Shown in pieces: positions 5,225-36,712 of a stretch of 46,079 nucleotides of DNA. Position numbers and translations under genes: made by a program. The notes below the pieces were generated by a model that did not search any database, was not told where the DNA came from, and worked only from the letters and a program-made list of their open reading frames with translations. The DNA comes from Prevotella sp. GTDB lineage: Bacteria > Bacteroidota > Bacteroidia > Bacteroidales > Bacteroidaceae. The first letter of the stretch is position 1; each line of letters begins with the position of its first letter. The stretch covers positions 1 to 46,079 of the forward strand of contig JAFVGS010000001.1 in NCBI GenBank assembly GCA_017474845.1, in the 5' to 3' direction.

Positions 5225-7732
5225 TTACTGTGGCATAGTGGTGTTGCCGTTGCCGGAGGTACTGCCGGAGCCAGCGTTGTTGATGATCTCGCCCTGCGAC
5301 TGCTGCTCGATGAAGTCGTTCTGCACACGGTTCACGTGCTGCTTGGCCCTGACCTTACTGTTGCCGAAGGTGTAGCTGACGGTGAAGGTCACGCCGTAGA
5401 TGGGCACCTTGACGTTGTTGTACGAGGTGAAGTTCTGTCCGCGGCTGCTGCTCTCGATGTTCAGGTTACCACCCTTGTTGAGTCCCATGATACCCTGTAC
5501 GCCCAAGGTGAGCTTGTCTTTCAGCAGCGACTTCGAGAGGCTGGCAGTGAGGATATTGAATCCGCCACTCCATCCCTGCAGGGTATAGTTCTTCGTAGAG
5601 GTGATGAGGAAGGCGCTGAGCTTCAAGTCCCAGGGGAGTGTCTGCTGCAGACCTGCCATAATGTTGGCCGTCCATCCGCTGTTGCTCTGGTTCAGTTCGT
5701 CGCTACTCAGGTCGACATAGTTCAGACCACCGTTCATGAAGAGGCGTGTCTTGGGAGTCAGCAGGTAGTTCACATAGGCACTCAGACCCGTCTGGTGACG
5801 CTGTACGACGTTGCCGTAGGTGGTGTTCAGCAGGTTGTCGCTGTCGTAGAAACTGTACTGCGAGATGGCGTTGTCGGTGAAGTTGTGGTGCAGGTTCAAG
5901 TTGACCATCAGCTTTGCGGTGAACATGTTATAGACCAGCGAGATATTATGTGCCTTCTCCACCTCAAGGTCAGGGTTGCCATAGCTGAGGGCGATGGGAT
6001 TGGTCTTGTCGACATAGGGGTTCAGGTAAGAGATACCCGGGCGGCTGATGCGCATGTTGTAAGTAAGACCGAGGTTGCTGCCCTGTGAGATGGTGTACTG
6101 CAGGCTGGCAGTGGGTACGAGGTTGCCGTACTTGGTGTCGAAGTTGTCTCCGTTGCCGAGGCGATACTCCACGTCCTGCCAAGTGTATTCATAACGGACA
6201 CCTGCCTTCACACCCAGTTTGTTGAAGTTGCCGACATACTCGCCATAGCCTGCGAGGATCTTGTTCTTGTACTCATAGTCAGAGCTCGTCGTGGGATCGT
6301 AGACACCCTTCAGGTAGTATCTCGACTCCGAGGTGGCGTCGTGTAACTGCAGCTTGCCGCCAAGGCTCAGGGTCTGGCCAGCGCCGAGAGGCATCGTATA
6401 GTCGAGCTGGAAGGTGTGGTTGGTGGTCTTGTCATCGTTCTCCGAGTAACGGCTCGTCAGGTCAGGCAGTCCTACACCTCTGGTTCCGCCGAAGTTGTTG
6501 GTCATCTCCGTAGAAGAGGGGCTGTAGTTCAGTTGATAGGTAAGGGCGAGCGACTTGGTGTGCTCCTTGTTGAAGAAGCGCTGGTAGTCGAGGCTGCCGC
6601 TGAACGAGGTGCGCGAGTTCTTCATATCCGTTCTGCTGTCATAGCTGAAGTCAGCGACGTCATAGCCATCCATCTCAGTAGTCGTGGTACCTGTGCTCTT
6701 CATTGACATCGAGTTGATCTGTGCCGTCAGGTTCAGGGCGCTCATCTCGTCGAGCTGATAGCCCAGCGACAGGCTTCCCATCGTGAACGGGGTCTTCACG
6801 TCGTTGCTGGAGGTCATCATCTGAGAGACACCGTTGTCCTGAATCTGCTCCAGTTCGGTCTTGGTGTCACCTGGCTTGTTGTACGAGGTCATGGCATTCA
6901 CGCTGTAAGAGAACTTACCCTGCTGGCCGCTGACGAAGGCACTGGCACCCAGCTGCTTGGTGCCTGCCGAGGCACGGACAGTACCGTTGTAGCCGTCCAT
7001 ACTGTAACTCTGTGAAGGCATGCCGCCAGCAGCGGAAGTCTGCTTGTTCATCACGATGTTCAGAATACCAGAGGCACCCTCGGCATCGTACTTCGCACCA
7101 GGATTGGTGATCACCTCGATGCTCTTCACGGCTGTGGCGGGCATGCTCTTGAACACCATCGAGGGGTTCGAGGAGAACATCACGTTGGGCATGCCGTCGA
7201 CATACACCTTGAATGAAGAGGAACCGTTCACGGAGATATTGTCCTGACCGTCGACCGTCACCATAGGCACCTTGCGGAGCATGTCGAGCACGGTGTTCGA
7301 CTTCGAGTCCTCATCCTCGGCCACGTTGTAGCTCATCTTGTCCACGTCCATCTTCACCAGCGGCTTCTGGGCGACGATTTCCACACCTTTCAGCATGGTG
7401 GCGTTCTCCTTAATATATAAGATACCGAGGTCGAGCACACCTTCGTTGTTCAGTTCGATAGTCTGACGGAAATCCTCCTTACCCACGCTACTGAACACGA
7501 TGTCATACTTTCCCTTGCCACTGATCTTCTCAGAGAACTGCCCGTCCTCCTTGGTGAGGAACATGGCCACGGGCTTGTCCGTCTTACCAGCCTTGAACAC
7601 GCGGACGGTGGCGAACGGCTCGCTCTCGTCCAGCGCCTCATCCTTCAACACGCCCTTCACGGTGGTCTGGGCCATTACTACTGCCGACATCGTCAGCATC
7701 ATCATCACTGCGAAAATTCTAATCTGCTTCAT
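5225..7732 (-). CDS. TonB-dependent-receptor-like outer membrane protein
   Basis: Outer-membrane beta-barrel protein of the TonB-dependent receptor superfamily (OMP_b-brl_3 group), presumably importing or binding an oligosaccharide, peptide or metal complex. The 835 residues show a signal peptide (about 1-21, ending VVMAQ), a carboxypeptidase-regulatory-like beta-sandwich (about 23-110), a plug domain (about 125-235, with VDKMSYNVAEDED and the GAKYDAEGASGILNIV block) and a long barrel. The last barrel strand (TFTVSYTFGN) is followed by an unusual roughly 50-residue polar, Asn/Gly/Ser-rich tail. It is not paired with a SusD gene, so it is unlikely to be a SusC in a classical PUL. The LytS/LytTR genes follow 57 bp downstream with their own promoter. 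Confidence 0.9.
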   Translation of the reverse strand: MKQIRIFAVMMMLTMSAVVMAQTTVKGVLKDEALDESEPFATVRVFKAGKTDKPVAMFLTKEDGQFSEKISGKGKYDIVFSSVGKEDFRQTIELNNEGVLDLGILYIKENATMLKGVEIVAQKPLVKMDVDKMSYNVAEDEDSKSNTVLDMLRKVPMVTVDGQDNISVNGSSSFKVYVDGMPNVMFSSNPSMVFKSMPATAVKSIEVITNPGAKYDAEGASGILNIVMNKQTSAAGGMPSQSYSMDGYNGTVRASAGTKQLGASAFVSGQQGKFSYSVNAMTSYNKPGDTKTELEQIQDNGVSQMMTSSNDVKTPFTMGSLSLGYQLDEMSALNLTAQINSMSMKSTGTTTTEMDGYDVADFSYDSRTDMKNSRTSFSGSLDYQRFFNKEHTKSLALTYQLNYSPSSTEMTNNFGGTRGVGLPDLTSRYSENDDKTTNHTFQLDYTMPLGAGQTLSLGGKLQLHDATSESRYYLKGVYDPTTSSDYEYKNKILAGYGEYVGNFNKLGVKAGVRYEYTWQDVEYRLGNGDNFDTKYGNLVPTASLQYTISQGSNLGLTYNMRISRPGISYLNPYVDKTNPIALSYGNPDLEVEKAHNISLVYNMFTAKLMVNLNLHHNFTDNAISQYSFYDSDNLLNTTYGNVVQRHQTGLSAYVNYLLTPKTRLFMNGGLNYVDLSSDELNQSNSGWTANIMAGLQQTLPWDLKLSAFLITSTKNYTLQGWSGGFNILTASLSKSLLKDKLTLGVQGIMGLNKGGNLNIESSSRGQNFTSYNNVKVPIYGVTFTVSYTFGNSKVRAKQHVNRVQNDFIEQQSQGEIINNAGSGSTSGNGNTTMPQ

Positions 7733-24637: not shown

Positions 24638-24725
24638 GCGGACTCAACGTCCGCTTTGATGCAAGCGGTGCCGCGGACTCAACGTCCGCTTTGCAACATT
24701 TCTTGCTGATGCAAGCGGTGCCGCG
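24638..24725. repeat. Hairpin and direct repeats beside tRNA-Leu
   Basis: Two copies of the hairpin GCGGAC-TCAAC-GTCCGC at 24638-24654 and 24673-24689 (35-bp period). In addition the 19-mer TGATGCAAGCGGTGCCGCG occurs at 24657-24675 and again at 24707-24725, where its last 7 bp are the 3' end of the tRNA gene. The block lies just downstream of the tRNA and may supply transcription stops, but it also looks like duplication of a tRNA end. Confidence 0.65.
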
Positions 24726-24804
24726 AGCGGGACTCGAACCCGCACGACCGTTTCGGGTCAAGGGATTTTAAGTCCCTCGTGTCTACCAATTCCACCATTG
24801 CGGC
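24719..24804 (-). tRNA. tRNA-Leu (anticodon UAA)
   Basis: 86-nt class II tRNA on the minus strand. 5' end GCCGCAATGGTGGAATTGG with the usual D-arm; anticodon stem AGGGA/TCCCT with loop CTTAAAA, giving anticodon TAA (reads UUA/UUG); a long variable arm (TGACCCGAAACGGTCG); T-arm GGGTTCGAGTCCC. The acceptor stem closes with one A-C mismatch at the sixth pair. The discriminator is A, and CCA is not encoded (ACCGC follows). It has its own promoter upstream. Confidence 0.95.
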
Positions 24805-29526: not shown

Positions 29527-31128
29527 TTAGAATGGCAGCTCTGGCTCTGTTTCTTTTTTATCTATCTGATTCGCAAGCTGTTCACCCTCTTGCTTAAGAT
29601 CTTCGGCCATGATACGCTTAACCACATATACATTCCCTTTATTAGACTTCTTTGTCGGATATATCTTCAATTTCTTCAAGGCCGCATTCACTTTGTGTGG
29701 AGTATATTCTTTATTATAACCTGTGCGTGATGACATCCAGCTTATAATTTCGCCAACAATGACAGCTTGAGCTTGTTCATTAGGCTCAGGCTTGCGCAAT
29801 ACTGTTGGTATAACGGCTTCACAGATGCCCTCGGTAACGTATCTGATGTTGATTTCCTTCAGTCGGGCTATCATTTCTGGAGTAATTGTAGTCGAAAAAC
29901 TTCGTGGGTGTGTTGCCAGGTAGTAGGCTTGAGCGAAAGCTTTGTCAATAGGCATACTATCGTAGTTCTTACTGCCGACGACAGGGAGCACCAGGAAACG
30001 GCGATTGCCAAGATCTTCAGGCAGGAAATCCAAGTGATTGGTAGTGGCAGCAAGTGAGGCGTGTACCTTACGCGTCTTTTCGTTGTGGGCAAATGGCGCA
30101 CGTTCGGTCACAGTATTAGCACCTGCACCTCCCACCATGTTCTTTAACTTGTTGAAGGTCTGGCTGTTCAGCTTAATTTCATCGAGGAAGAAGATGATGC
30201 TGTGAGCCATAGCCAGTTGTTCATCCTTGTCCTTAAATGTTGAGAGTTGTACCGAACTGTGGAGGTAGCGGCGCAAAGGTGTTGGAAGCAGTCGCAGCAC
30301 AAACTCCGTCTTTCCGGTTCCCTCCTTCTCACCCTCCAGCACCAGCATCAACTGGTTTGTTACATCAAGTCCGGCAGACGAAGCTACAAGGCATACAAAC
30401 CAAAGCTTGAAGCACTCAAACAAGAACTCCGCATCTGTTCCCTCCTCCAACTGCAGATACTGGAATATCTGACGAATGTAGTCAACGCGATGTTTCCAAG
30501 GTTTCAGCGACTTAACATATTCCTCTACGGGATTATAGGGCGTTGAGAATACACCTGAGTTGATATACGTGTTGAGGTTGTCCTTTGATACCTTAACGTT
30601 TCTGCTGTGCATACGTGTAAGGACATCGTTAAGTTCACGGTCATCGAACTCGCGCCAATCTTCTTCCCTTGGCTTCAACTCCACTTTCTCGCTGAGCGTG
30701 TTGTAGCGGAATATGTAGTCGCTACTGAGAAATTCATATACCTGTTTGAACAGGTTCTTTCGATCCTCCTCGCGTTCTTCGTCTGTCTTAGGGGGACGTC
30801 CTCTTTTGGGCTTGGCCTCCTTTGGCACAGTGATGTCTATGCCATGCTGCTCTGCCATGTGTACGAGCGTGCCCAAGGTGATTTCGTGGCGAGAAGTCTT
30901 CTGGCAGTTGTTGAACTGAGCGTCGCACTTTGTCTCGTCATACTTTGAATCGAAGGCGCAGATTTTGTGAAACCACTGCCTTCCTACTTCTCCAAAGATG
31001 GAACACACAAAAGCAAACCGCAGGTACTCATCGTAAGTATGGGCGATGTTAACACTTGCATCATAGATGCGTTGGCACAGGAGTTCGAAAAACTCCTTTT
31101 CGGTCATGGTGGAATTATTCTTTTTCAT
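29527..31128 (-). CDS. VirE/VapE-type P-loop helicase
   Basis: Probable replicative helicase of the virulence-associated E / superfamily-3-like group found in Bacteroidetes mobile elements. From the Met at 31128 it has 533 residues. An N-terminal region with a basic segment (KEAKPKRGRPPKTDEEREED, like an AT-hook linker) precedes a P-loop ATPase domain with Walker A EGEKEGTGKTEF (about residues 262-273), Walker B SIIFFLDEI, a sensor in HASLAATTNHLDFLP, and an arginine-rich DLGNRRFLVLPV block. The C-terminal 100 residues resemble a winged helix. The start is chosen so that it overlaps the primase-like gene by only 14 bp, which implies translational coupling. Inferred role: unwinding DNA for a resident island or phage remnant. 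Confidence 0.85.
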   Translation of the reverse strand: MKKNNSTMTEKEFFELLCQRIYDASVNIAHTYDEYLRFAFVCSIFGEVGRQWFHKICAFDSKYDETKCDAQFNNCQKTSRHEITLGTLVHMAEQHGIDITVPKEAKPKRGRPPKTDEEREEDRKNLFKQVYEFLSSDYIFRYNTLSEKVELKPREEDWREFDDRELNDVLTRMHSRNVKVSKDNLNTYINSGVFSTPYNPVEEYVKSLKPWKHRVDYIRQIFQYLQLEEGTDAEFLFECFKLWFVCLVASSAGLDVTNQLMLVLEGEKEGTGKTEFVLRLLPTPLRRYLHSSVQLSTFKDKDEQLAMAHSIIFFLDEIKLNSQTFNKLKNMVGGAGANTVTERAPFAHNEKTRKVHASLAATTNHLDFLPEDLGNRRFLVLPVVGSKNYDSMPIDKAFAQAYYLATHPRSFSTTITPEMIARLKEINIRYVTEGICEAVIPTVLRKPEPNEQAQAVIVGEIISWMSSRTGYNKEYTPHKVNAALKKLKIYPTKKSNKGNVYVVKRIMAEDLKQEGEQLANQIDKKETEPELPF

Positions 31129-31720
31129 TCTGACAGTATTTTGGATTGATATAACATTGGTCATCGTGTCCGAGGAAGCATGCCCTGCACACATCAGAAC
31201 ATCCCCAGTCTGGCTCATAGCCGTATTGTAATACCAAGTGACGGCAGAGTCCGAGATACTGCTCCTTATAGTCGCAGTCTACCAGCCATTCGGGTATCTC
31301 CACCACCCATTTTACCCAAAGCCCTCCAGGAGAGACAAAACTGAGTGCGGTGCTAATGTTCTGGTCTTCAGATAGTTGTAGTGCTAATTGATGGGTTTCT
31401 TCTGTAGAAGTGAGTCCATCAATGTCAATGACGATAAATGGCGATAGGCTTGTTAAAGCCTTTGCCTTTCGAGAAGAGAAGATACCACGGAAAGTAACGA
31501 AGCGGAAGTTTAGCTTTTTGTAGTCGCTGCACTCCGACTTTGTTGCTGATCCGAGCATGGAGCGTAGCGTGTCGGTGGCCTGCTTCGACTGTTCTGACTT
31601 GATGTAGTCGTACACTTGCTTGATGCTCCAAGCTCCAAACGGGCGGGTAGCCATTACGGCTACCCCCTCGTGATTGCGGTATCCCTGTGGGAATACTGAG
31701 AAATGTTTGTTGTCTGTCAT
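31115..31720 (-). CDS. VirE N-terminal / AEP primase-like protein (BT4734-like)
   Basis: 201-residue protein matching the Bacteroidetes BT4734/VirE_N type, which resembles the catalytic core of archaeo-eukaryotic primases. Seen: the hhDhDG metal motif as SPFIVIDIDGL (about residues 92-102), the following STALSFVSPGGLWVKWVV strand pair, and the C-terminal SDVCRACFLGHDDQCY block, which corresponds to the conserved S...R..F...D motif. It directly precedes the helicase gene with a 14-bp overlap, so the pair likely forms a split primase-helicase. In many relatives these are one polypeptide. Expected to act with the AT-rich palindromic tract upstream. Confidence 0.85.
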   Translation of the reverse strand: MTDNKHFSVFPQGYRNHEGVAVMATRPFGAWSIKQVYDYIKSEQSKQATDTLRSMLGSATKSECSDYKKLNFRFVTFRGIFSSRKAKALTSLSPFIVIDIDGLTSTEETHQLALQLSEDQNISTALSFVSPGGLWVKWVVEIPEWLVDCDYKEQYLGLCRHLVLQYGYEPDWGCSDVCRACFLGHDDQCYINPKYCQNEKE

Positions 31721-31743
31721 TGTCGTTACTTTTTAATGTTCAA

Positions 31744-32097
31744 CTACAATCGGTCAAAAAACCCGTACAGGTTTACCAACAGATCATCGACGTGTTCAAT
31801 GCAGGTGATGGTGAACGCTTCGCCAGTGTAGAACAGGGCTAAAGCCTCCACAATCACATTCTGCATGTGAGGGTCGAAACCACGCAGGCTGTTGCATACC
31901 TCGTAGAATAGGTGTGCATTCTTGTGCGGGTTCGCCATCACCATCAGCGTGCTTAAAGCATCCTTGTTGATGCCGTAAGCTGAATGCAGATCCAACACTC
32001 GGACTTCCCTCGAAATCCCTTTCACTCGCTTACTGCCTCGACGGGCAGCGCTGAAAACTTTCTTTTTCTTCATTTTATGAAAGTTTTTAAGTTGCAT
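31744..32097 (-). CDS. Small basic hypothetical protein of the primase cassette
   Basis: 117 residues from the Met at 32097 (MQLKNFHKMKKKKVFS); a start at 32073 (MKKKK) is equally plausible. An upstream in-frame ATG at 32211 would add residues from a low-complexity GC/AT tract and is rejected. The N-terminus is strongly basic (KMKKKKVFSAARRGSKRVKG), followed by a helical C-terminal part (ALSTLMVMANPHKNAHLFYE, EALALFYTGEAFTITCI). It is probably DNA- or RNA-binding by charge only; I do not recognise the family. First gene of the minus-strand primase cassette, 23 bp before the primase-like gene, behind a roughly 335-nt leader. Confidence 0.65.
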   Translation of the reverse strand: MQLKNFHKMKKKKVFSAARRGSKRVKGISREVRVLDLHSAYGINKDALSTLMVMANPHKNAHLFYEVCNSLRGFDPHMQNVIVEALALFYTGEAFTITCIEHVDDLLVNLYGFFDRL

Positions 32098-32215
32098 AGG
32101 GAGACTATTCACCCTTGCGGCTTGAACATTTTGGATATTCAAGTTGCAATACGTGCAATTTGTTGTTCTGGGTTTACTGAGAGAAAAAACAGAGAGGCTT
32201 CGCGTACGCACACGA

Positions 32216-32470: not shown

Positions 32471-32716
32471 TGTTTTCAGATAAAAATCATCTTACTTGAT
32501 TCAAATCAATGTATTTGCATAAGACTTAGATTTGTTGTGGTTGGGGTGTTTACCTTTATGTTTTTGGAGGAATTATTGATAACACATTGGTTGTCAGATA
32601 TTTGTAAAGTACGAATGATTTGACTTGTTTAGGTCGCTTTTCAATTCTGATGGCATAATATTCCATAAAAAAATCACTTTTTTTTCATTACAGCACATAT
32701 TTACAAATAAAATTTG

Positions 32717-33031
32717 TATCTTTGCAGTCAGTTCGGGGAGAAATCCGGACTGACAAATAGCACTCGCTATTATTTCGCGCATAGCCAAGAGCGTCGGAAA
32801 CTCTGATTGGTATAAGAAGCACGGAAATAATAGGTGACAGGCGAGCCGTATAACGGTTCTTCTGTTCTCGTTTGGGATAGCGATGCATACGCTTAGGCGT
32901 GATGCATCCAGCAAACGGGACAGAGGCACCATCCGACGCCGCCTCTTGCTATGCGCAAAGGAGCATCACGCTCTTTTTGTGCCATGGCGTGATTGATAGT
33001 TGAGCGCATCGACTAAAACTATCAATTGAGT
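32717..33031 (+). ncRNA. Highly structured leader RNA or ncRNA upstream of the modification/nuclease operon
   Basis: Begins with a -7 element TATCTTTG (32717-32724; -33 unclear). About 300 nt follow with helices at 32727-32736/32745-32754 (10 bp, one wobble); 32756-32761/32766-32771 (AATAGC/GCTATT); 32767-32776/32824-32833 (CTATTATTTC/GAAATAATAG, exact, competing with the previous one); 32843-32849/32853-32859; 32863-32874/32912-32922 enclosing 32882-32908 (GATGCAT..ATGCATC); 32923-32927/32941-32945; 32953-32964/32970-32982 with an internal TTTTT; and 32993-33001/33017-33025 (TTGATAGTT/AACTATCAA) ending 6 nt before the methylase ATG. Not tmRNA, RNase P, a tRNA, or any riboswitch class I recognise. 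The reading as a regulatory leader or a free ncRNA is inference. Confidence 0.6.
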
Positions 33032-34150
33032 ATGGCAAATACAAATTTAGCAAATGCGAAGACTGCAAAGAACGACGAATTCTACACGCAGTACAACGAT
33101 ATACAGAAGGAAATCAATGCCTATCTGGAGTTTGACCCAGATGTCTTTCGCGGAAAGACAGTGCTACTGCCTTGTGACGATCCAGAATGGAGCAACTTTA
33201 CCAAGTTCTTTGCACAGAACTTTGAGGCTTATGGATTGAAGAAGTTGATAAGTACAAGCTATGCCGTTGAATCCAAGAAAATAAAGGAATGGGAACCGAC
33301 GCTCTTTGAGACAGAAAGCCCCTACTACGATGCAGACAAGAGTCGCACACATGGAAAAATATTCGTGTTGGACGAGGACATTAACGGTGATGGACGTTTC
33401 AATATCAACGATTTGCAATGGTCATATCTTGAAGGCGATGGTGACTTCCGTAGTGATGAAGTTAAGGCTTTGCGCGACGAAGCAGACATAATTATCACCA
33501 ATCCTCCGTTCTCACTCTTCCGCGAATTCTTTTTGTGGATAATGGAATCTAAGAAGAAATTTGTTATTATAGGGAATGTGAATGCGGTTTCATATAAGGA
33601 AATATTTCCCTATATTAAGGAAGAGAAAGTTTGGTTGGGGAACGGCTTTAGCAATGGTAATGCTTATTTTCGTATAGTTGGCGAAGCGAATTATGTTGAT
33701 GGAGTTTATGATGAACAAACAGGGTTGGTTAAATTTAGAAATTGCTGTTGGTACACTAACATTGATCATGGTCGACGTCACGAACCCCTCCCGTTGATGA
33801 CAATGGAAGACAATATTCTTTACTCAAAACACAAAGAAATAAAGGGCAAGGGATATGTCAAATATGAAAACTACGACGCAATAGATGTTCCTTATACTGA
33901 TGCCATCCCATCAGACTATGAGGGAAACATGGGGGTACCTCGAACATTTCTGGATAAATACTGTCCAGAGCAGTTTGAAATAATAGGTAGTGCTGAGGGG
34001 GATGCGGGGAAAGAACTTGGCTTTAAACCATACCCTCGTGAATTAAGGAAACTCAATAAAAGCTTACGAGACGGGCAACCATACTATTTTGATGAGAATG
34101 GATTCCCTCAGAAGCCATTTGGAAGAATTATAATCCGCAAAAAACAATAA
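33032..34150 (+). CDS. EcoRI-family adenine-specific DNA methyltransferase
   Basis: N6-adenine DNA methylase of the M.EcoRI (EcoRI_methylase) type. 372 residues from ATG 33032 ([20 protein letters not shown]); a TTG two codons upstream is less likely. Typical blocks: [16 protein letters not shown], the [20 protein letters not shown] segment, catalytic motif [19 protein letters not shown] (about residues 149-165), and [15 protein letters not shown]. The expected site would be GAATTC-like; one such site lies inside its own 5' end (33077-33082). First gene of a four-gene operon (5-bp gap to the next). Family assignment is firm; target sequence and pairing with a nuclease are inferred. Noticeably more AT-rich than the core genes, consistent with acquisition. 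Confidence 0.9.
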
Positions 34151-34155
34151 GAGCT

Positions 34156-35331
34156 ATGCAAACGACATTGATGACAGACCTGACGGTTAAGGAAATATGC
34201 GAGGGCTTTGTTTACAACCAATTGGAAGGCAAAGGTCTGAACGGCTGGGCTGGAAAGCTGACTATACAGCCAGAGTATCAGCGTAACTATCTCTATCTTG
34301 AGAATGACGGCAAAAAGGAAATGGCTGTCATCGACAGCATGCTAAAGGATTATCCTATTGGACTTATCTATTTCAATGAACCGGAGCAAGGCAAATATGA
34401 GATTCTCGACGGTCAGCAACGTATAACAAGCATTGGTCGCTTCGTCACGGGTAAGTTTGCCATCAAGGACAAGTTCGGCATGGAGCAATACTTTACTGGG
34501 CTGACCAAGGAGGAGCAAGAGAAAATCCTCAATTATCGACTGCTGATATACATCTGTAACGGAACTGAGAAGGAAATTAAAGAATGGTTTGAAACCATCA
34601 ATATAGCAGGTGTTCCGTTGAATAGACAGGAACTACTCAATGCAACCTATAGTGGTCCGTTTGTCACGGAGGCAAAAAGAATATTCAGTAACTCGCGTAG
34701 TCCACAACTACAGAAATGGAGTTCTTATGTAAAAGGAAATGCAAATCGCCAGGATATTTTGCACACCGCTCTTGGGTGGGTAGCGAAAGGAGAGGATAAT
34801 ATTGGTGGCTACATGAGCCAGCACCGTTACGAGAATAGCATTGAGGAATTGAAGACTTATTTCGATACGGTGATTGAATGGGCAAAGATGTTATTTGGCT
34901 CACCCAAGGACGAAATGCGAGGGTTGGAATGGGGCGAATTCTATGAAAAGTATCATTCCAATTCCTATAACCCAGCCTTGCTACAGCAACGGGTGAACGA
35001 ACTATATGCTGATGAAGCCGTAACCAACAAGCGGGGAGTCTTTGAATTTCTACTTGGTGGAGAAACTGACCAGCATTTGCTGAACATCCGCATCTTTGAA
35101 GAGAGTGTGAAGAAGACGGTGTATGCCCGTCAGACAAATGAGGCACGAGAGCAGGGCATCAGCAATTGCCCTGAATGTGCAAAAGGACATGATAATGTTC
35201 GCACCAAGATTTATAAGTTCAACGAAATGGATGCAGACCACGTATCTGCCTGGAGCAAGGGTGGTGCCACCGATATCAGCAATTGCCAGATGTTGTGCAA
35301 GACTCATAACAGAATGAAAGGAAATAGATAA
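34156..35331 (+). CDS. DUF262 (GmrSD-like) protein with C-terminal HNH nuclease
   Basis: 391-residue candidate restriction enzyme. The N-terminal DUF262/GmrS-like domain (ParB-type nucleotide-binding fold) shows [11 protein letters not shown], then [15 protein letters not shown] and the signature [15 protein letters not shown] (about residues 86-100). The C-terminus is an HNH endonuclease: CPEC zinc-type pair, then [20 protein letters not shown] with the catalytic His and [13 protein letters not shown]. The two domains together are as in GmrSD/BrxU-like enzymes, which use nucleotide-dependent control of DNA cleavage. The HNH part is intact. It lies 5 bp after the methylase gene, so host DNA methylation may protect from, or direct, its cutting. 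Whether it cuts unmodified or modified DNA cannot be told. Confidence 0.88.
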
Positions 35332-35356: not shown

Positions 35357-35794
35357 ATGGATAGAAGTTTTTTAGAATCGTTAATGTCAAAGGTTAAGAA
35401 CCCAGCAAGGGTTTGCGTGAAGTTCTACGACCGCAAGTATTACTACATTGAATCGGTAGAAAGAACAAACGACACCTTAGGGTGGTATACTATAAATAGC
35501 AATGTGGTAGAAGAAGAACTGGAGAAAGAAGGTTACTCATGGTGCTATGTTTTTGAAACAGCCCCCGAACAAAGTCCAATCATATATATGTGGTTTGCGA
35601 AGGGACTTACAAAGAATGATTTGGAAAGAGAATTTGATGACGTAAATGAGTCGCTGCCTGAAGGACGACAGATATTCTTCGAGGATGGCCCTTTCTCTGC
35701 TATTGATGTTGACCAATATGATAACAGCATGACAGTCTTAGAACAAGAACTGTTTAGAAAAGCAAGTGAAGTATTCAGAGTTTACGAAGCATAA
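35357..35794 (+). CDS. Unrecognised 145-residue protein of the defence operon
   Basis: Not recognised. A small acidic soluble protein without signal or membrane segment. The N-terminal half has strand-like aromatic stretches (RVCVKFYDRKYYYIESVE, GWYTINSNVVEEELEKEG, YSWCYVFETAP); the C-terminal half is helical and acidic (DLEREFDDVNESLPEG, VLEQELFRKASEVFRVYEA). It is enclosed by the DUF262-HNH and Mrr-like genes at 25 and 18 bp, so it is almost certainly cotranscribed. Its position suggests a regulatory, inhibitor or specificity subunit, but this is only inference from context. Confidence 0.75.
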   Translation: MDRSFLESLMSKVKNPARVCVKFYDRKYYYIESVERTNDTLGWYTINSNVVEEELEKEGYSWCYVFETAPEQSPIIYMWFAKGLTKNDLEREFDDVNESLPEGRQIFFEDGPFSAIDVDQYDNSMTVLEQELFRKASEVFRVYEA

Positions 35795-35812: not shown

Positions 35813-36712
35813 ATGGCAAAAGATAAATTCAGCAGAACGAAAGCCTGCGCTACTAAGACGCTTTACGCAGTGATGAAAGAAATGAGCCGCCGAGGTGGCA
35901 GTATGCCAGCGAAGGAACTATATCCTTTTGTGAATGAGAACGTAGGATTGACGGACTGGGAGAAGGAACCAGCAGGAAAGATGAAATATATACGCTGGAC
36001 GAACAGCTTCCAGTTCTATTCCATAGACTATCAGAAGGCAGGATTTATTGTGAAGAAGAGTGGCAATTGGTACTTGACACCCGAAGGTGAGGCTGTGCTG
36101 AAAAAGACTCCCGAAGAGGTGATGACGATAGCCAATGATGCCTATCATGAATGGCGGCGACTGAACCCTAAGGTGGAAACTCCTGATGAAGAACCAAACG
36201 ATGAGACCGCCGAGAAAGACAACGGTGTGAATCTTGACATGCTGGAGTCGGATGCCCGCGAAGGTATCAGAAAGTTCATTGTCTCAAAGAGTCCGTATGA
36301 ATTTCAGGACATGGTGGCAGCACTGCTGAGGGCTATGGGCTATCACACGCCTTTCATTGCACCCAAGGGCAAGGACGGTGGCATTGATATCACAGCTTAC
36401 TTAGATCCACTTGGCGCTCAGACTCCACGTATTAAAGTACAGGTGAAGCATAAACCAGAAACGGCCATCGGTGCCTCAGACATTCGCGCCTTGCTGGGTG
36501 TGCTCCGTGCTGGCGATATTGCCCTGTTCGTAACCAGCGGCACATTCTCGCCTGATGCCAAGACTACAGGAACCAGTTCGCGTGAGTTCATCCGATTGAT
36601 AGACGGTGATGAGTTTATCGACATGTGGCTGGAGTTTTACGACAAGATGACTGATGATGACAAGAACATGCTACCGCTGAAGCGGATATCGTTCTTAGGG
36701 AGTAACGAGTAA
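35813..36712 (+). CDS. Mrr-type restriction endonuclease
   Basis: 299 residues in two parts: an Mrr_N-like winged helix (about 10-105, GGSMPAKELYPFVNENVGLTD ending in KKSGNWYLTPEGEAVLKK) and a PD-(D/E)xK catalytic domain (about 155-265). The nuclease core is seen as the PYEFQDMVAALLRAMGYHT helix, the Asp of KGKDGGIDITAYLDP, and the QxK of RIKVQVKHKP; a GDIALFVTSGTFSPDAK block closes the fold. Mrr enzymes usually cut methylated DNA, so pairing with a resident adenine methylase is notable. It would either have to ignore the host mark or not be independent of the other products. Last gene of the operon; long hairpins follow 45 bp downstream. Confidence 0.9.
   Translation: MAKDKFSRTKACATKTLYAVMKEMSRRGGSMPAKELYPFVNENVGLTDWEKEPAGKMKYIRWTNSFQFYSIDYQKAGFIVKKSGNWYLTPEGEAVLKKTPEEVMTIANDAYHEWRRLNPKVETPDEEPNDETAEKDNGVNLDMLESDAREGIRKFIVSKSPYEFQDMVAALLRAMGYHTPFIAPKGKDGGIDITAYLDPLGAQTPRIKVQVKHKPETAIGASDIRALLGVLRAGDIALFVTSGTFSPDAKTTGTSSREFIRLIDGDEFIDMWLEFYDKMTDDDKNMLPLKRISFLGSNE

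Follow-up and report, generated by a model that had tools for sequence, protein, structure and literature searches.

A candidate riboswitch-like leader RNA family of Bacteroidales upstream of restriction-modification and other operons

We analysed a stretch of 46,079 nucleotides from a Prevotella genome (hereafter the window) and focused on the RNA stretch 32727-33026, which lies between a -7 promoter box and the start codon of an EcoRI-type methylase gene at 33032. Comparison with its relatives indicates that this stretch is probably a member of a large Bacteroidales family of cis-acting leader RNAs and would function as a riboswitch-like transcription attenuator. The family is absent from Rfam 15. 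A sequence-only reading of the same DNA had described a dense structured leader in front of a methylase-nuclease operon and had interpreted it as a switch; its observation was confirmed, and its interpretation was partly supported. The predicted folding energy of 32727-33040 was -135.2 kcal/mol, compared with -90.7 ± 5.2 kcal/mol for 100 dinucleotide shuffles (z = -8.5; 0/100 as stable). Together with covariation among homologues, this bears out the dense leader, relatives of which occur well beyond the window.

The coordinates of the leader elements and of the operon genes are collected in Table 1. The 5' end of the RNA is probably at about 32727, since TATCTTTG, which from the consensus we take to be a Bacteroidetes-type -7 box, lies at 32717-32724. 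The pattern TAnnTTTG was found within 120 nt 5' of the core in 154/177 copies, compared with 7.3% after mononucleotide shuffling of the upstream regions. Copies differ in the first part of the leader, of which there are at least two kinds: the GGGGAGAAATCC hairpin found in the window, and a variable hairpin plus a motif such as GACATTGTGGGTAAA. Both kinds lead into the same core (loci L083, L091, L097, L100 and L102). At the other end, the hairpin before the start codon, previously given as 9 bp at 32993-33025, is present as an exact 10-bp pair (32992-33001 with 33017-33026). Each of seven of its pairs was kept in 41-43 of the 43 sequences of the structure-free alignment; because there is almost no variation, this is conservation and not covariation. 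Beside the operon, three long ORFs on the reverse strand (29527-32211) resemble, by eye, the replication module of a mobile element.

Table 1. Elements of the leader RNA and genes of the downstream operon, with positions in the window
Feature	Position	Strand	Basis or remark
Bacteroidetes-type -7 promoter box TATCTTTG (presumed)	32717-32724	+	sequence; directly 5' of RNA
5' hairpin, loop GGGGAGAAATCC	32727-32754	+	loop motif in 94/180 copies; the rest have another 5' end
Helix a, 5' strand	32768-32776	+	partner 32824-32832; part of pseudoknot
Helix b, 5' strand	32777-32785	+	partner 32948-32956
Helix c, 5' strand	32791-32798	+	partner 32932-32939
Helix h, 5' strand	32809-32811	+	partner 32928-32930
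Helix a, 3' strand	32824-32832	+	exact complement; permutation test
Internal hairpin P, 3' arm with two possible partners	32884-32906	+	its two helices 86.3% and 96.1% paired
3' arm of P, one side of pairing X	32897-32905	+	pairs with 32963-32971
Helix h, 3' strand	32928-32930	+	model-aligned copies
Helix c, 3' strand	32932-32939	+	both alignments
Helix b, 3' strand (b'), also 5' part of U-tract hairpin	32948-32956	+	two partners
U-tract hairpin T/T*, terminator-like, overlaps b'	32948-32988	+	fold; 129/177 copies
Other side of X, within U-tract hairpin	32963-32971	+	
Pre-start hairpin ATTGATAGTT...AACTATCAAT	32992-33026	+	exact 10-bp pair; adjoins start codon
EcoRI-type adenine methylase, operon gene 1	33032-34150	+	PF13651, Pfam E 1e-122
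GmrSD_N/DUF262 + HNH protein, operon gene 2	34156-35331	+	Pfam; PADLOC REase_II
145-aa protein between both nuclease genes	35357-35794	+	no Pfam or PADLOC match
Mrr-like nuclease (Mrr_cat, PDC-S02)	35813-36712	+	Pfam, PADLOC

A search of the whole window with Rfam 15 returned a tRNA at 24719-24804 only, and 32600-33100 searched at E up to 10 gave two matches far below the gathering cut-off. Among 20 related loci of several sub-groups, the same models returned two tRNAs only, and in two further stretches all matches were far below the cut-off; the SAM riboswitch family models matched neither the window nor these loci. The leader thus matches no Rfam 15 family, in line with the sequence-only reading, which had matched it to no known RNA class. 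By blastn, it was detected in 36/199 related genomes, the window's own included. Many of these copies precede the same kind of operon, though the methylases are just 35-50% identical; at L083, the leader is 89% identical to that of the window over 285 nt, and the methylase 42% identical. Other blastn copies precede type I, PLD/helicase or unclassified methylase-like operons. Four loci (L041, L045, L052 and L053) gave no blastn match to the leader.

A covariance search with the nested helices (model R1) found copies in 92/399 genomes of the family, and across 296 genomes of the phylum it matched the window's own genome only (0/295 others). The wider model R2 gave a match at E ≤ 0.01 in 26/295 genomes drawn from the order. 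Below 1e-12 these comprised, besides the window's own, 14 genomes in eight other families, so that restriction of the leader to one family proved wrong; the other 11 genomes had E between 1e-5 and 0.008, and these weaker matches may be short forms or chance. In 50,697 phage and 72,556 plasmid records, no match to the leader was found by blastn at E 1e-5. Three exact patterns had 0 matches in viral contigs, where the methylase protein had no relative either.

Covariation was assessed in two alignments. In a structure-free MAFFT alignment of 43 leaders (A1; omitted were L054, for which no end was located, and 15 copies that were truncated, divergent or duplicates), the RNAalifold consensus contained 48 pairs. 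One or more double compensatory changes were present at 24 of these, and helices b, c and h as well as hairpin P covaried. In 100 model-aligned copies (A3; 99 distinct), double changes occurred at 37/37 pairs, a score reached by 0/500 shuffles, and 93.7% of cells were paired, compared with 73.6% in shuffled columns and 27-50% with slid partners; the model already held the nested helices, so these pair counts favour them, a bias from which A1 is free. The check proposed by the sequence-only reading, covariation in aligned homologues, therefore came out positive in both alignments. Double changes were seen at 9/9 pairs of helix b (99.4% of cells paired in the 99 distinct copies; recovered in the structure-free alignment too) and, in the model-aligned copies, at 8/8 pairs of helix c (99.0% paired) and 3/3 pairs of helix h (96.1% paired). 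Helix a is absent from model R1 and was tested by partner permutation instead. Its mean own-partner score over 172 copies was 18.8, compared with 17.5 in the permutations (maximum 18.1). Over 167-172 distinct copies, 0/5000 permutations scored as high for a, b, c, T* or X, in tests that ignore the relatedness of the copies.

Because the order of the strands alternates (a, b, c, a', c', b'), the core right after the promoter is, as predicted from these comparisons, a pseudoknot of helices a, b, c and h. The exact 10-bp stem 32767-32776/32824-32833, pointed out before, is present and conserved in relatives; it belongs to this pseudoknot and not to a switch, since it crosses two covarying helices. 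In contrast, the local hairpin at 32756-32771 that had been set against this stem was poorly conserved (6/6 pairs in 3/147 copies, at least 5/6 in 58/147) and was rejected as a switch partner. The switch layout itself fared better: mutually exclusive pairings and a terminator-like hairpin are supported, and it was the alternative pair originally named that was not.

The better-supported competing pairings are two that had been overlooked, pairing X (32897-32905/32963-32971) and the double use of b' (32948-32956), and both competitions are conserved in the sequence comparisons. For X, 98.2% of 387 cells were paired in 43 sequences, compared with 95.6% in shuffled columns and 14-58% in slid controls. 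Changes from C-G to U-A occur, and eight doubly changed cells were counted, compared with 2.4 in shuffles, a number reached by 0/500; the double changes fall on three pairs in the 43 sequences, which 38/500 shuffles also reach. In divergent copies the two sides change together, to AGGCACGGGC/GCCCGTGCCT in L201 and to GGGCATGGAC/GTTCATGCCC in L205. X had a mean own score of 20.7 across 167 distinct copies, compared with 17.5 when permuted (0/5000 as high), with hairpin P located automatically and its position wrong in some copies. The own partner was the best one in only 11/167 rows, because close relatives score alike. Since X crosses the core, it may represent a tertiary contact and not an antiterminator.

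The second competition concerns b', whose two alternative partners are the 5' strand of helix b and the strand 3' of the U-tract. The second of these pairings gives one long hairpin in the window (32948-32988; -21.2 kcal/mol in a 60-nt piece), in which the U-tract hairpin previously placed at 32953-32982 is present as a nested part. When the 5' part of b' was tested against this second partner, 0/5000 permutations were as high, compared with 2984/5000 for a neighbouring control stretch. A further pairing, Y, between hairpin T and GGCGTGAT 3' of T, was 85.6% paired, but its covariation was at the level of shuffles and 428/5000 permutations were as high, and it was rejected. A leader peptide or peptide-coding attenuator was also discarded for the ATG in hairpin P, the one start considered, since the ORF from it has no conserved length.

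A hairpin with a U-tract was found within 60 nt after the core in 129/177 copies, compared with 130/1770 shuffles, and 48/177 copies failed this search; in the window, the U-tract is inside the longer stem and not at its end. Furthermore, a short-form leader with the same motifs stands before some EcoRI-type methylases that lack a strong model match; it was present in 12/18 upstream regions inspected (L231, L235, L237, L238, L240, L247, L249, L257, L258, L052, L053 and L041). Of the remaining six, L232, L243 and L254 are without such an RNA by eye, and L234, L246 and L253 lie inside a gene. In 12/12 short forms, the only regions taken into this hairpin test, which had no shuffle control, b' leads into a hairpin of 11-13 bp whose tail is U-rich. 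The best partner of the hairpin-P region included the 3' arm of this terminator-like hairpin in 11/12 of them, and in L053 its 5' side. We prefer the attenuator reading mainly because these short forms have an ordinary attenuator layout.

We propose that a folded core, with T captured by the 3' arm of P through X, would keep T from forming and let the polymerase read on into the operon. Release of b' into T would end transcription before the methylase gene. The core would sense a cellular signal through a small molecule or a protein. This signal may be tied to DNA invasion or to the physiological state, because many unrelated restriction and defence operons share the RNA. In many restriction-associated members, the pre-start hairpin may add translational control.

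The genes downstream of the copies were classified at 124 loci from the R1 family search (L104-L228 minus L112, the window's own copy), by blastp to labelled representatives and for the first one or two ORFs only. EcoRI-type methylase operons followed 57/124 copies, and other restriction or defence-like first genes followed 17/124. These 17 comprised three type III-like Mod proteins, two C5 methylases, two HsdR_N and two PDC-S11 proteins, and one each of PLD/NgoFVII-like, N4/N6 methylase, DEDDh exonuclease, PDC-S31, putAbiC, HKD+Snf2, type IIG and MmeI. Other genes followed 26/124 copies (acyltransferases, LRR, secreted proteins, C10 peptidase, sulfatase-fold proteins and others), and two of the 124 lay at a contig edge. 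Non-methylase first genes encode acyltransferases, a C10 peptidase, BspA-like proteins, a CsgG-like protein and surface proteins. Viewed from the genes, 57/130 EcoRI-type methylases among the matches listed for the family had the long RNA 0-400 nt upstream; fragmentary rows were excluded from this count, and the second gene of L151 was scored as without the RNA, which yet precedes its operon.

Proteins like the 769-aa one of L067 followed 5/124 copies. This protein (L067 2613-4919, reverse strand; also at L117, L126, L129, L148 and L160) is 769-776 aa long and carries an NPPF motif, and its L067 copy had no Pfam, PADLOC or NCBIfam match. In L067 it is followed by a 366-aa protein that is nuclease-like by eye, and the two are perhaps an undescribed methylase-nuclease pair. 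A separate sub-group of leaders is without the pre-start TGATAG hairpin (L074, L077, L161, L166, L168, L169 and L199) and precedes CsgG-like, LRR, VWA, lipoprotein-like and C10 peptidase genes, not restriction genes.

We tentatively consider a broader reading, a Bacteroidales RNA sensor class that would switch many types of restriction-modification and defence operon, together with surface-modifying genes, on one shared invasion or stress signal. The operon types that it might cover are types I, II, IIG/IIL and III-like, as well as nuclease and helicase systems. The versions within one genome, being so diverged, may be independently tuned. It is likewise possible, rather than probable, that the core is recognised not by a small molecule but by an RNA-binding protein or a NusG-related antitermination factor, which would be a special case overlapping the attenuator reading. 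NusG-like factors are known to act on leaders in Bacteroides, and the near-invariant stretches GGAAAC and GCATT and the pre-start hairpin could be protein sites. However, by Pfam and PADLOC no regulator gene was seen among the four operon genes of the window, and the genes downstream of the copies differ widely.

We give a small chance to a trans-acting or free structured RNA, for which T would be the end, the gene would be expressed by read-through and the RNA itself would be selected. The promoter box and the terminator-like end are consistent with it, as are truncated copies that stand alone, for example L059 and L066. At L049, a second full-length copy (7385-7592) lies after the Mrr-like gene of the same operon, which thus has a copy on either side, both with the same orientation. 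Some copies may indeed be free RNAs or remnants, because 17/124 had no ORF within 130 nt. Against this reading, the first ORF (90 aa or longer, or cut off by the contig end) began 20-125 nt after the core in 147/173 copies, with a median of 75 nt, and two conserved strand competitions would be unusual for a constitutive RNA. The short distance to the ORF also suits less well the free component of the defence system that the sequence-only reading had suggested. In addition, 50 pairs of copies within a genome were hardly more alike than random pairs between genomes (0.70 vs 0.67), values that also led us to reject concerted evolution within a genome.

Leaders and operons seem, from these comparisons, to have been exchanged, because leader and methylase identities hardly correlate (Spearman 0.087; 1017 pairs, roughly one in three of those among the 75 loci used, which come first in a set of 92). 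Among these, 33 pairs had more than 85% leader identity but less than 50% protein identity, and 12 pairs had less than 75% leader identity and more than 80% protein identity. The case of L042 and L141, taken at first as a leader swap before almost identical methylases, is weaker than it appeared, since the genes differ at roughly one base in seven (ungapped bins). The lack of correlation would also fit a recombination anchor, in which conserved DNA before the start codon allows exchange of restriction cassettes and folding is secondary. We consider this very improbable, because compensatory changes occur in every model helix, which requires selection for RNA pairing, and because the fold persists in very divergent copies that are no longer closely identical as DNA. 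Least probable of all is a SAM/SAH riboswitch or autoregulation by the methylase, which the EcoRI-type methylases downstream of nearly half of the copies would suit, but which copies before other first genes and the lack of any Rfam match, SAM riboswitches included, speak against. The methylase product or SAM, offered earlier as the signal, is thus unlikely to be the common one, because a considerable proportion of the first genes encode something other than a methylase.

It has long been asked how the timing of restriction systems ensures that methylation of a new host comes before cutting, and the answers so far have mainly been protein regulators. If the attenuator reading is true, unrelated defence operons would share an RNA switch, and this timing would gain a layer of control at the RNA level. 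The leader would furthermore be a handle for discovering further defence genes, and an orphan riboswitch candidate with more than 100 copies would be ready for testing. If the sensor-class reading were true as well, it would provide a common RNA-level regulator of bacterial immunity.

Among the titles and abstracts listed in the open literature on restriction-modification together with leader RNAs, riboswitches or attenuation, and on candidate structured RNAs, none describes this leader; an entry in a supplementary table is possible. A related case is a comparative prediction of candidate structured RNAs from human microbiomes, in which two candidates were reported as exclusive to Prevotella (PMC8040213). 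In the main text, to which our comparison refers, both of these are near uvrC, unlike the leader described here, and the words 'restriction' and 'methyl' do not occur (PMC8040213). Like riboswitches and leader attenuators with an intrinsic terminator, our leader stands at the start of transcription, has a conserved folded core and precedes varied genes; it also has a strand common to the core and the terminator-like hairpin and an alternative partner that would break this hairpin. Unlike them, it is an orphan candidate: its core, about 200 nt long and pseudoknotted, has no match among the Rfam families, and restriction-modification and defence-like operons account for many of its targets. The HEARO or IscB-associated RNA is likewise a large structured RNA before genes for nuclease proteins. 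In contrast, the window leader had no Rfam match to the HEARO model and its family precedes unrelated operons, and no IscB-type nuclease gene is present downstream in the window, where gene 1 encodes PF13651 and gene 2 GmrSD_N plus HNH. A further parallel lies with the C proteins of restriction-modification systems and the BrxR/CapW defence regulators, in which one kind of regulator stands before unrelated defence operons, as the leader does here; in our case, this regulator would be an RNA and not a protein.
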